Source: Polytrichum commune (Eukaryota; Streptophyta; Polytrichopsida; Polytrichales; Polytrichaceae). From it: 64,000 nt of DNA. The DNA lies in NCBI GenBank assembly GCA_950295325.1, contig OX485807.1, positions 12,117,001 through 12,181,000 of the forward strand. Direction: 5' to 3'. Within the stretch, counting starts at the first letter, position 1; the number at the start of each line of letters is the position of its first letter. Made by a program: the position numbers and the translations under genes. Under the pieces are notes generated by a model. That model saw nothing but the letters and a program-made list of their open reading frames with translations. It searched no databases and was not told the origin of the DNA. Shown in pieces: positions 14,986 through 28,330 of this stretch.

Positions 14986-16215
14986 AGGTAGATGTGTCTT
15001 GATTGGTTACTTGTTCCGACCAACCCACTTCTCTTAGGATTTGAAATATGTGACCAGTACAAGTTGGTTAGTGAATCCAAATCAAGGCTATAGCCATTTT
15101 TCTCATATATTTTTGAAGCTCATCTGAACATCTTTGTCATTATCAAAGTGAAGATTCTTGTGCTCATTAAATGGTCATGTAGGTCCCCTCCTAATTATGT
15201 GGAGTAGATATCAAGCCTAGAATGATTGCCATAATTCTATCACACAATTCAATCTCTTTTAAACACATGTCTCTTTAGTTTCCTTTCTTGGAGCCACACC
15301 AAATCACATACCAATCAAATATTGGTGTCCAATTAAGATAAGCAACCAAATTAGGCATGTCTACCCCAATAGTATGTGCATGTATATATAATTACAAGGT
15401 AATAAGGACTTAAGGAATATGGGTCTTGAATGGTTACTTTTTTCCAACTAGCTCACTTATCCGAGGATATGAAACACGCAATTAAAACAAGATGATCAGC
15501 AAATCTAAATCGAGGCGAAAGACACTTTCCTCGTGATTTTTAGAATTTGTATGAATATCTCATTTCATTTTCAAAGTGAATAGCCTTTGACTCACTAAAT
15601 GGTCATATAAGTCACCCCCCCCCCAACCCCCCAGTATGTTGACTATTGAGCCTAGAATGGTCACCATATCTCAAATACGCAATCCAATGTCTTGTAAACA
15701 CATATTATTTTGGTATATGTTTTGGGAGTCACACCAAACCATATGGCACTCAAACAATGGTACACTTATAGGAAAAATAATTGAATACAAGTTGTCTACC
15801 TTAAACAAGCACATTTTGTTGTGCACCTACTTACTGCATGATATGAAACATGCAATAAGTGTGATATGATTAGCAAAATCCTTATTGTGTTCTTAGCCGT
15901 TTCCCTTATAATTTATGGAGCTCATATGGATGTTTTATTCATTTGCAAAGTGAAGATTATTTTCTTTGCCAAAGGATCCTATATATTTTTATCCAAATAT
16001 GCTGGCTATCAAGCTTAGAACAATTGACAAATTTTAGCATGTAATCCAAACTTTTTTACACACACGTTTTTTTGTTTTTTTTCCCTCAATTTTTGAAAAT
16101 CTTCATTCAACTTAGTTCACACTTAGATAGATCCATGTCTAACCCACACACCCACTCAACTATAGGTTTTCATTTAAGATGAGTAACCGAATTAGGTACA
16201 CTTACCTCACTTGCA
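14986..16215 (-). repeat. Three head-to-tail R1 copies
   Basis: Copies occupy about 14986-15365, 15395-15805 and 15805-16215, all on the minus strand. Each runs from a GGTAGA(T/C)-type end through CCACTTCTC, GCAAATC, CATATG, AAGTGAA, AATGGTCAT, the C-run (15615-15625 in the second copy), CATGTCT/ACATAT, ACCAAA and back to CTACC. The ends of the first copy (GGTAGATGTGTCTTGATTGG and the complement of GGTAGACATGCCTAATTTGG) form imperfect TIRs of about 28 bp. They define R1 as MITE-like. Confidence 0.7.
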
Positions 16216-23190: not shown

Positions 23191-23405
23191 AGATTGGCCT
23201 TAAATTATTATTATTATTTTCCCCCGACTAGCCCACTTCTCCTAGAATGTGAAACACTCAATTAGTACAAGATGGTCAGCATTTCCAAATGAATGCTAAA
23301 GCCACTTTACTCATGATTTTCAAAGCTCGTATGAATATCTCAAACAATGGCAAAGTGAAGATTCTTGTAATCATTAAATGGTAATATAGGTTGCCCCTAG
23401 TTATG

Positions 23406-24510
23406 GGGGCTGCCTAAATACCCCCGACGAGCATTGCAGTTGTCAGGGCGGCGGGCAAGGGCAGCCCCAAAAAAGCCAAAGGTTCGGACACCCGACCCTA
23501 GCCTAATCCCCCGACCCTGTCCACCCGGTGTCCAGCCCGGCCTCCAGCCTGGACAGACGCCCGGTTTTCCGGCCGGCTTCCAGCCTGGCTACCCGCCCCA
23601 CCCTCCACCTGGCCACCCTCCACCTAGCACCTAGCCACCCTCCACCTTTACTAGTGCACCCGCCTTTCATTTGAATTTTTTTGGTTTTGCTTTGCTCATG
23701 GCTGTTGCAATGATGTGAGGAGCTTTGGTGTGGTTGTCAAGAACATGGCGGCGGCCATGCATATGCACTAGATCTTGGTTCTGAGGTTGTAGGACAGGGC
23801 GCTGCTCCAAAAAATGGAATGGATCCATGAGAGGGACACAATTTAGTGCACCCGCCTTTCATTTGAATTTTTTTGGTTTTGCTTTGCTCATGGCTGTTGC
23901 AATGATGTGAGGAGCTTTGGTGTGGTTGTCAAGAACATGGCGGCGGCCATGCATATGCACAAGATCTTGGTTCTGAGGTTGTAGGACAGGGCGTTGCTCC
24001 AAAAAATGGAATGGATCCATGAGAGGGACACAATTTCATGGCATCCGGCCAAGCACATGAACCACATCTTGGATCTGAGGGCGATGGACAGGGCGTTTTT
24101 TTGTTTAGGGTTGCAATGGATCCAAGAGAGAGAGATAATTTCGTGGTGGCAGCGAAGCCCATGGACTGGATCTTGGATCTGAGGGCGATGGACAAGGCGT
24201 TTTTGGTTTAGGGTTGCAATGGATCCAAGAGAGGGGAACATTTTCATGGCAGTGGCGGAGCACATGAATTGGATTTTGGATTTGAGGGTGATGGACAGGA
24301 CGTTGCTAGTTTAGGGTTGCAATGGATCTAATAGAAGGATACAATTTCATGGCATTCGACCAAGCACGTGGACTGAATCTTGGATCTGAGGGCGATAGAC
24401 AGGGCGTTTAGGATTTGAGATTGCAATGGATCAGAGAGAGGGACACAGTTTCATGGCATGCGGCCAAGCTCATGGACCAGATCTTGTGTTTCAAGGTGTA
24501 GGACATGGCG
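23406..24510 (+). repeat. Left inverted arm of the MULE, with 192-bp duplication
   Basis: Compared with the right arm, the left arm holds an extra tandem copy of a 192 bp block (23652-23843 and 23844-24035). The block spans GTGCACCCGCCTTTCATTTG to GAGAGGGACACAATTT. The outer ~230 bp is C-rich, with CCTGGCTACCCGCCCC-type and CCACCCTCCACCT repeats. Similarity to the other arm ends near 24508. Confidence 0.75.
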
Positions 24511-24736
24511 TTTAGGATTTAGGGTTGCAATGGATAAAAGAGAGGGACACAATTTCATGGCATGCGGCCAAACACATAGATAGATCTTGGATCTGAGCGC
24601 GATGGACAGGGCGTTGCTGATTTAGGGCTGCAATGGATCTAAGAGAATGACACAATTTCATGGCTTGCGGCCAAGCACGTAGACCAGATATTGGATCTGA
24701 GGGCGATGGACAAGGTGTTTAGGGTTTAGGGTTGCA

Positions 24737-24961
24737 ATGGATCAAAGAGAGGGACACGGTTTCAGGTTCTGCTCTTGGATACAAGCCGGGGGTTTTGACG
24801 ACCTTAATAACCTCAAGGCATCCCAAGTTCGATGCATGTTTGATCCACCAAACGTAAAGTGTATGAGTGGCCAGCTTGCAGGGTTAACTGCTGAAGTTGT
24901 GCAAATCAGTGCAGGACAGGCCGTGGAGGATGAATCACATTGCGAGGAGGGTTTAGAATAA
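24737..24961 (+). CDS. Short arm-initiated frame on the plus strand
   Basis: The 74-codon frame starts MDQREGHGF, as do arm-derived frames on the other side, and runs into unique internal DNA. No domain is seen and the C-terminus is acidic (VEDESHCEEGLE). It could be a chimeric exon transcribed from the left arm. Evidence for translation is absent. Confidence 0.25.
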   Translation: MDQREGHGFRFCSWIQAGGFDDLNNLKASQVRCMFDPPNVKCMSGQLAGLTAEVVQISAGQAVEDESHCEEGLE

Positions 24962-25501
24962 GAGGATCATTTTGATGTAAGAGTGGTGGACGTATTTTTA
25001 CCATGCTAGTGATAGTTTTTACATATGTTTGAACTACGATTGTAACAAATTGTGAGGTTTATGACAGGTATATAGTTTTGTGCAATCATATGTAGTAAAT
25101 CTTGTATTATCACGGTATGCTATGGAATCCAATGATATCATGTCCTATTCTATTCTATGTTGTCATAGCCTGCCTTAACATGTCATGTTATGTCCTATTA
25201 TGTCCAGGCATGTTTTAACTTGTTTTTTTTTCTATATTCACCAGTCTGACAACAATGAACACAATGTTTCTACAATCTTGGTTTCCTAATCCGGATGTTA
25301 GTATTTTTCCAACTTGTGTCTATACAACTTTTGAATTTCCGCAAATTCCTAGGACCAGGACCAATTTCGAATGACAGGGGAAAAAGAAATGACGCTTCTG
25401 GCTTAGGCACCATCATTTGAAGTTGCCACTCCGTTGAATGGCCACACATAAGGGGTCATCCTCAAGCGGGAGTGGATCATTCAATTTCAAATTACCATAT
25501 T

Positions 25502-27318
25502 CTTAGTAATGATAGAAACAATCTGGATTTTCGTCTGTCCACATCCTCACACTCATGGCATCCCGTGGATGCTTGTCCCAAAGCTCTTTGGCAAGCTTAT
25601 TGGCTATGTTGCACACATCAACTGGCATAATAAAAATGTCCCTAGTCGCAGGCAAGTTATTTAGGGCACCTTGCATGACCACAGAGCTCTGCTATGCCAT
25701 AACATGAGCAGATGACTTCCGAGATCTAAGTGTATCAGCTATCAATTGTTTTGTTGTCATGGACAAACGACCCGATAAGCCAGCCCGCTGCCTTCCAAAC
25801 TCAGTGCCATGACAGGGTTTTCCGTCTTTATTAGTATGTGTCATGCAATGAAAATGAATTGTGCAAAGAGATTCATCTAGAAGTAATTATTTGACAACAA
25901 AATTATATTGACATCCTCTCTTGATGGACATTCCAGCCTGGATGTTACCAACCCTAGTTTTCCTCTTAGGCTTCGTAGATGTCTGGATGAGGGTTTGTGC
26001 CTGAAGGAGCTTCGCCTATGCATCTTGCACCCTGGCTTGATCCTAGAGATCCTCATCAGGATCGTCCTCATTGAGATCTGGAACAGCCTCTGTCATTTCT
26101 TTCTTCCGTCATTGTGGTTTTGATGTTGCGTCCTTCTGAGACTTTTCTACAAGATTTTGTGCCCTCTGTAATGCTTGTCGATGAGATGTTGATTTTTTTT
26201 TCTCCAATAGCACATGTGCAAACACCTTCTGGATCTCTACCTTGTATTGTCTAGTGTATTCCATTGGCCCATACTGGCACCAATAACTACATTGGAGGAC
26301 ACGTCTCATGGTTAGTTCAAGCTCTCACGACGTGATAGACCACATGTTTACAATATGGACTAGGTCATGCAGAGGACGTGTGTATGATAGGCTTCAATGC
26401 TATCTAAAAACCAAAATTCGAAGGGGATAAATGCAAATTCCATTACATGTTTAAACCCTAAACCCAAAACACCTAAAAAAAATGCAAGAATCGTTACCTG
26501 ATATCTTGAATTGCAGATTCGACACGTACTTGCTTCCTGTCTTGTCTCTTTATGCATTGCCTAGATTCCTCATGAAAGATGCAAGGGAACTGCCGGGTTG
26601 ACATTTCTCCTTCCAAAAAATCATCTAGCCGAGCCCAATGAATTGTAGCCTTCTGGGTATCCTTTATGTTACCATTGCCGTGATTGGACTTGGCCTCCCA
26701 CTTTAAATCTGTCCTGTCAAAAGGGCCAGGGGGTGGTACTTGGACAGATGCCAGGACTCTCTGGTATAAATTCCTCCATGACGGACGGATCTTCTTCTCT
26801 TGGACTGAAGTTTGTACTTCCATCACAGAAACAAACTCTGGCGTATTCAAATCTGCATCATTCGTATTCAGGTGAGATGCATGGCTTTCATGGTTGACGT
26901 TATGATCTACTAAATGTCCTCCAGGTGGTCATTGTCCAGGTTTGTGAGTAGCCATGAATTCAAATTCCGAAGTGTTTGCATCATCTCCTGTCCCAAGATC
27001 CACTGCATATGCATTGTAGCCACTATGTCCATGGACTGTAGATCGCTCCTGTGCAAGTTCAGGGTCACCTCCAAAATTCCATATTCTTAAAGGGTTTCCC
27101 TCATTTCCATCCATTGCATTCAGTGGATCATCGCCTTGTCCTACACCCTGAAACACAAGATCTGGTCCATATGCTAGGCTGCATGTTATGAGATTGTTTT
27201 CCTCTCTTGGATCCATTGCATTCAGTGGATCAGCGCCCTGTCCTACGCCCTGAAATACAAGATCTGGTCCATGAGCTTGGCCGCATGCCATGAAACTGTG
27301 TCCCTCTCTCTGATCCAT
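25502..27318 (-). pseudogene. Decayed split gene inside the MULE, function unknown
   Basis: Reading the minus strand from 27318: exon 1 (27318 to about 26498) starts MDQREGHSFMACG inside the right arm, encodes two ~37-residue repeats from the arm tandem units, and then a unique region with KIRPSWRNLYQRVLASVQ and HWARLDDFLEGEM. It ends at a good donor (CAG/GTAACG). Further coding-like blocks are 26309-26109 (CQYGPMEYTRQYKVEIQKVF), about 26095-25910 (PDLNEDDPDEDL) and about 25838-25502 (MPVDVCNIANKLAKELW, ending at TAA). In-frame stops break it at 26929-26931 (TGA), 26043-26045, 26016-26018 and 25692-25694 (TAG). I do not recognise the family; it is not an obvious MURA transposase. It is either a captured host gene or an element-specific gene. 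Confidence 0.55.
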
Positions 27319-28144
27319 TGCAACCTCAAATCCTAAACGCCCTGTCCATCGCCCTCAGATCCAAGATTCAGTCCACGTGCTTGGTCGAATGCCATGAAAT
27401 TGTATCCTTCTCTTAGATCCATTGCAACCTTAAACTAGCAACGTCCTGTCCATCGCCCTCAAATCCAAAATCCAATTCATGTGCTCCGCCACTGCCATGA
27501 AAATGTTCCCCTCTCTTGGATCCATTGCAACCCTAAACCAAAAACGCCTTGTCCATCGCCCTCAGATCCAAGATCCAGTCCATGGGCTTCGCTGCCACCA
27601 CGAAATTGTCTCTCTCTCTTGGATCCATTGCAACCCTAAACAAAAAACGCCTTGTCCATCGCCCTCAGATCCAAGATGTGGTTCATGTGCTTGGCCGGAT
27701 GCCATGAAATTGTGTCCCTCTCATGGATCCATTCCATTTTTTGGAGCAGCGCCCTGTCCTACAACCTCAGAACCAAGATCTAGTGCATATGCATGGCCGC
27801 CGCCATGTTCTTGACAACCACACCAAAGCTCCTCACATCATTGCAACAGCCATGAGCAAAGCAAAACCAAAAAAATTCAAATGAAAGGCGGGTGCACTAG
27901 TAAAGGTGGAGGGTGGCTAGGTGCTAGGTGGAGGGTGGCCAGGTGGAGGGCGGGGCGGGCAGCCAGGCTGGAAGCCGGCCGGAAAACCGGGCGTCTGTCC
28001 AGGCTGGAGGCCAGGCTGGACATCGGGTGGACAGGGTCGGGGGATTAGGCCAGGGTTGGGTGTCCGAACCTCTGGCTTTTTTGGGGCTGCCCTTGCCCGC
28101 GCCCTGACAGCTGCAACGCTCGTCGGGGGTATTTAGGCAGCCCC
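27225..28144 (-). repeat. Right inverted arm of the MULE
   Basis: This is the reverse complement of 23406-24510 minus the 192 bp duplication, with scattered substitutions. An ATG in the arm at 27318 starts the internal minus-strand frame. The same ATGGATCAGAGAGAGGGAC occurs in the left arm at about 24424, where the frame stops after 29 codons. Confidence 0.75.
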
Positions 28145-28330
28145 CTAGTTATGTTGACTATCGAACCTAGAATGATTATTGTATTTTGAGCACAAAGTAC
28201 AAACTCTTTTAAACACATGTCTTTTGGTATCTATTCTTGTAGATGCACCAAAACACATACCACTCAAGTTAGGTGTCCTAATAAGAGAAGTGACCAAATA
28301 AGGGTTGTCTACCTTAAGAGGGTAAATGGG

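Follow-up and report, generated by a model that had tools for sequence, protein, structure and literature searches.

A non-autonomous element with foldback-type arms in Polytrichum commune, very probably a deletion derivative of a Mutator-superfamily transposon

Introduction

Ds elements are internally deleted forms of the autonomous element Ac and are moved in trans; Ac/Ds belongs to the hAT superfamily and is associated with 8-bp duplications. Among elements of the Mutator type, MuDR of maize carries two genes, and mudrB has been reported only from Zea (PMC3276141). Tm1 of root-knot nematodes combines the features of Mutator-like elements (MULEs) with foldback-type arms, and the FARE foldback elements of Arabidopsis are referred to here as they are cited in the Tm1 paper (PMC3169594). 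Abermu of barley carries additional ORFs, one of them reversed, unrelated to MURB (PMC9168764).

An element of 4739 bp from the moss Polytrichum commune is described here and compared with these systems. It lies in a window of 64,000 nucleotides (assembly GCA_950295325.1, contig OX485807.1, positions 12,117,001 to 12,181,000), and positions given without a contig refer to this window.

Results

The element and its insertion site

The element extends from 23406 to 28144, with its transposase gene on the minus strand, and is bordered by two copies of the 9-bp target-site duplication CTAGTTATG (23397..23405 and 28145..28153, no strand assigned). Its exact ends are CTAGTTATG followed by GGGGCTGCC... 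on the left, and ...GGCAGCCCC followed by CTAGTTATG on the right. The insertion is hosted by a dispersed repeat (23224..28314, plus strand), the flank parts of which are 23224-23405 and 28154-28314. Once joined, the two flanks align unbroken across the point of insertion with four further copies of the repeat in the window, at approximately 15016-15365, 15444-15770, 36296-35950 and 33210-32945, which show the empty site. Both the perfect duplication and the nesting within a repeat that has empty sites had been claimed by a sequence-only reading of this DNA, and both were confirmed. Taking its ends, duplication, arms and empty sites together, the discreteness of this element is far above chance.

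The left inverted arm (23406..24764, plus strand) is made up of a terminal part, two 192-bp units (23652-24035) and ~104-bp tandem units (24010-24764), and the right arm (27109..28144, minus strand) of ~104-bp tandem units (27109-27807), one 192-bp unit and a terminal part, the arrays and the 192-bp units being detected with TRF. The arms pair in two blocks, one of 440 nt at 97.7% (23405-23844 with 28145-27707) and one of 748 nt at 94.9% (23844-24589 with 27899-27156). Because only the left arm has two copies of the 192-bp unit, it measures ~1.36 kb, against ~1.0 kb for the right; the earlier description of arms of 0.9-1.1 kb built from tandem units holds as to the composite build. The element therefore has the terminal inverted repeats of the Mutator superfamily and also the long terminal repeats, composed of tandem subrepeats, of the foldback type.

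Within the terminal repeats, the motif ACGAGCATT is located 21 nt from the left end (23427..23435, plus strand) and differs by one change from ACGAGCGTT, which is found at equal distance from the right end (28115..28123, minus strand). ACGAGCGTT is also present 21 nt from the end of a diverged two-gene element at C1:42.11M, and the transposases of this element and of the window family (the latter compared through a relative at C3:5.53M) are ~51% identical in the C-terminal half. The motif is proposed as a candidate transposase-binding core. The ~104-bp arm units (26929-27354 and 24010-24764) were also observed to hold ATGGATC and open frames (MDQREGHSFMACGQAHGPD...) which continue into the transposase frame, and the arm arrays and the 5' end of the transposase gene may share an origin.

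Copies elsewhere in the genome

The genome (408 Mb, seven large contigs) was searched with the arm and the middle separately, which returned at least 40 scored matches for the arm (109 candidates) and 24 for the middle, and merging these loci revealed complete element copies on several chromosomes. Perfect 9-bp duplications were found at seven insertions with flanks that were all different: the window element and six siblings, at C2:28.50M (GCTTACCTG), C5:41.01M (CTCAATAAG), C6:5.55M (ATTCCAAAG), C3:48.28M (GGGTAACCT), C1:12.48M (TGTTTTGAG) and C2:16.60M (GTGGAGAAG), the last two of which have the terminal variant GGGTCTCTCT. At a further copy, C1:59.74M, the duplication agrees at 8/9 positions. 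In the close copies the middle sits between the same arms as in the window, indicating an element gene, and a few diverged or short middle matches had no arms within the DNA examined around them. Some copies consist of nearly the arms alone, such as that at C7:41.05M (1.47 kb), and the number of units in the arms differs among copies. One arm of the C6:5.55M sibling has a strongly expanded ~104-bp array (~20 units, >2 kb), and its other arm is normal. The longer copies examined have broken frames, and no fully intact autonomous copy of the window family was found.

Several other genes were noted during these searches. The MULE copy at C4:45.26M is flanked by open frames similar to pogo/Tigger-type transposases (such as VVQPLDQGVIDTLK), and a PIF/Harbinger-like transposase frame (L021:744-1319) is present near the long C3:8.07M copy, both as judged by eye; a protein with a NAM-associated domain (L061:2357-3262) is also encoded near the latter. 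The genome encodes light-harvesting proteins of the land-plant type, for one of which the best single-domain PDB matches were 8htu and 7xqp, which we take to be Physcomitrium photosystem structures. At C5:1751760-1846160, 14 or more genes for light-harvesting proteins, whose profile scores are identical, lie within 100 kb.

The middle of the element

In the middle, as judged by homology, lies the N-terminal half of the MULE transposase of the element itself, encoded in two exons on the minus strand. The remnant of exon 1 (26497..26793, minus strand) is 64.6% identical to the C3:5.53M relative (E 2e-44), which also has the catalytic half, and that of exon 2 (25434..26285, minus strand) is 62% identical to it (E 9e-115) and has six in-frame stops. 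The exon 2 remnant contains an RGCQYNF...C-H-rich segment and ends with EWQLQMMV, directly before the first catalytic Asp, and after the deletion the C-terminal tail continues (FEIGPGPRNLRKF..., 25270..25374, minus strand) to a stop. Longer copies at C3:8.07M, C4:45.50M, C5:8.86M and C6:35.61M have the two halves of the window's middle separated by a further ~1.5 kb, which encodes DATF (with the first catalytic Asp), CLWH...KAW, DTNAA-ESYHANLK and a SWIM-like finger. There is also a frameshift in the window copy, and at least two of its stops are shared with siblings; it is predicted to make no working transposase. The six stops in the truncated transposase appear to be mostly at Gln codons of the relatives. 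Stops at Gln codons are expected of C-to-T decay in methylated DNA.

The window's middle pieces alone gave no match to Pfam, and the MULE Pfam matches in the genome were all outside the close copies of the element, which at first suggested that there was no transposase, until the longer copies explained why. The sequence-only reading had likewise reported a split gene and no visible transposase: the split gene is real, if degraded, but it is a truncated transposase.

Superfamily membership

Duplications of 9 bp, as is typical of Mutator elements, are present at the seven insertions and at the diverged C1:42.11M element. Against the Pfam MULE profile PF10551 (cut-off 27.6 bits), a diverged relative (L055) scored 15.6 bits, below the cut-off, and genome homologues 38-47% identical to the family transposase scored 36.2 and 33.9 bits in the same reading frame. 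The MULE DDE domain is thus assigned through homology, over the matching region of these homologues. The SWIM-like finger C-terminal to the DDE core scored 18.2 and 19.0 bits against a cut-off of 19.6, and the C-x-C...C-x-H pattern is visible. Because the family transposase by itself falls below both cut-offs, membership rests on the homologues and on the 9-bp duplication. A profile search for a MULE transposase fails with the window pieces but succeeds with homologues of the family transposase, and the identification as a Mutator-like element, which had been made from the letters alone, holds.

The deletion junction

A filler of ~32 nt (25375..25406, minus strand) marks the loss of ~1.5 kb, including the DDE core and the SWIM-like finger. 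A 38-nt stretch at the junction matches 33/38 to sequence inside ORF2, the second gene described below, of the C3:8.07M copy; the filler was apparently copied from elsewhere in the element, the match being short and its source a longer relative. Filler copied from nearby is a usual mark of interrupted gap repair. The junction, including the filler, recurs in five copies distributed over four chromosomes (93-100% identity), and as it is common to all five, one derivative arose once and then moved. With its catalytic core lost and its junction common to the copies, the element has the character of a non-autonomous deletion derivative, and having been mobilised it would need transposase in trans.

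ORF2 and the two-gene relatives

Facing the transposase in the longer copies is another open frame, ORF2, and a 3' tail of this convergent gene (WIQAGGFDDLNNLKASQVRC..., 24770..24961, plus strand) is all that remains of it in the window. ORF2 is present at 19 loci in the genome, 15 of which were examined; a transposase lies tail-to-tail with it at 13 of the 15, and the other two are without a transposase within 4 kb. All paired loci are convergent (0 in other orientations), and the fuller relatives therefore share with MuDR a second gene convergent with the transposase. The diverged element at C1:42110217-42117408 (L057:1218-8409; 7.19 kb) contains the two convergent genes as long open frames. 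It is bounded by 377-bp terminal repeats, which are 95% identical, and by the perfect 9-bp duplication GTCCACCAT. Of the relatives encountered in this analysis it is, judging from these features, the strongest candidate for an autonomous element.

The motif C-x2-C-x12-H-x5-C is found at the N-terminus of ORF2 in related families. No relative of ORF2 was detected in Pfam or, by PDB profile search, among solved structures, and AlphaFold models (mean pLDDT 39.6 and 34.2) gave no usable fold owing to shallow alignments. No moss MULE with a second gene came up in a search of the literature. It is tentatively proposed, at slightly less than even chances, that this is a moss Mutator lineage with a dedicated convergent second gene, which would be unrelated to mudrB, would encode a protein of ~700-800 aa with a C2HC-type finger at its N-terminus, and would have been independently acquired as a MULE helper or anti-silencing factor. 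The suggestion of a MULE lineage with its own accessory protein had been raised earlier as an alternative; the convergent ORF2 of the fuller relatives agrees with it in part, but the gene in the middle to which it referred is the transposase.

Discussion

The window element is very probably a Ds-like form of a Mutator-superfamily transposon that has become non-autonomous through internal deletion and has foldback-type arms. The deletion could have originated in interrupted repair of an excision gap, with a template switch into ORF2. The transposase of a fuller relative would recognise the ends, perhaps by way of ACGAGCGTT together with the subterminal units, and, supplied in trans, would move the derivative by cut-and-paste, as the structure of the copies suggests.

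The sequence-only reading had suggested a private gene or a Pack-MULE, in which the arms would have taken up part of an ordinary host gene; a middle which is split into pieces and has no Pfam match of its own would suit such a capture. However, the same arms accompany the middle in the close copies, every genome match to the transposase that was examined is of the MULE type, and the genome search found no host paralogue of the middle. The DNA between the ends belongs to the element's own transposase and to the ORF2 tail, and since in the longer copies the middle is continuous with the DDE/SWIM-like catalytic core, the capture reading is refuted for the main gene and is considered extremely improbable overall.

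The truncated transposase might instead have been kept as a regulator, its DNA-binding half acting without a catalytic core as a dominant-negative repressor of the family, by analogy with KP, the P-element repressor of Drosophila that likewise arose by deletion. What the deletion takes away is exactly the catalytic and SWIM-like half, the cysteine/histidine-rich segment at the N-terminus stays, and five copies have the deletion in common, all of which would be consistent with this role, but the stops, some of them also found in siblings, make it very unlikely, and for the window copy it was rejected on the six stops and the frameshift. Equally unlikely is a foldback-type element that spreads by means of its hairpin arms and carries the middle along passively. 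The long composite arms with their subterminal tandem units would fit it, as would copies that are almost arms alone, such as C7:41.05M, but the clean 9-bp duplications point to ordinary MULE transposition, the spacing of the terminal motif equals that in the two-gene element at C1:42.11M, and the arm unit number varies among copies.

As a deletion derivative the window element is ordinary in kind; of greater interest is the two-gene lineage that came to light alongside it. The element is nevertheless a clear example of an autonomous MULE decaying into a mobilised derivative, with a lost core, a filler and a single junction shared by five insertions. From its fuller relatives, two-gene MULEs seem to form a lineage outside the flowering plants as well, which bears on why MuDR needs or keeps its second gene, because an apparently unrelated partner gene occupies the same convergent position and could be compared with mudrB.

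The likeness to MuDR lies in the 9-bp duplication, the long terminal repeats, the non-autonomous deletion copies and, in the fuller relatives, the pairing of the transposase with an oppositely oriented second gene; in contrast to MuDR, however, the arms carry ~104-bp tandem units, and ORF2 has no detected relation to known families. With Abermu the family shares a MULE layout with extra genes, one of them opposite to the transposase, although Abermu has three ORFs. Like Tm1 and FARE, the family has a MULE-type transposase, 9-bp duplications, terminal repeats of tandem units and hairpin-like short copies, but its units are ~104 and 192 bp as opposed to ~14 bp, its host is different and it has two-gene relatives. 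Finally, as with Ds, the window element appears to be an internal deletion of an autonomous element that would move in trans, the difference being that it is a MULE.
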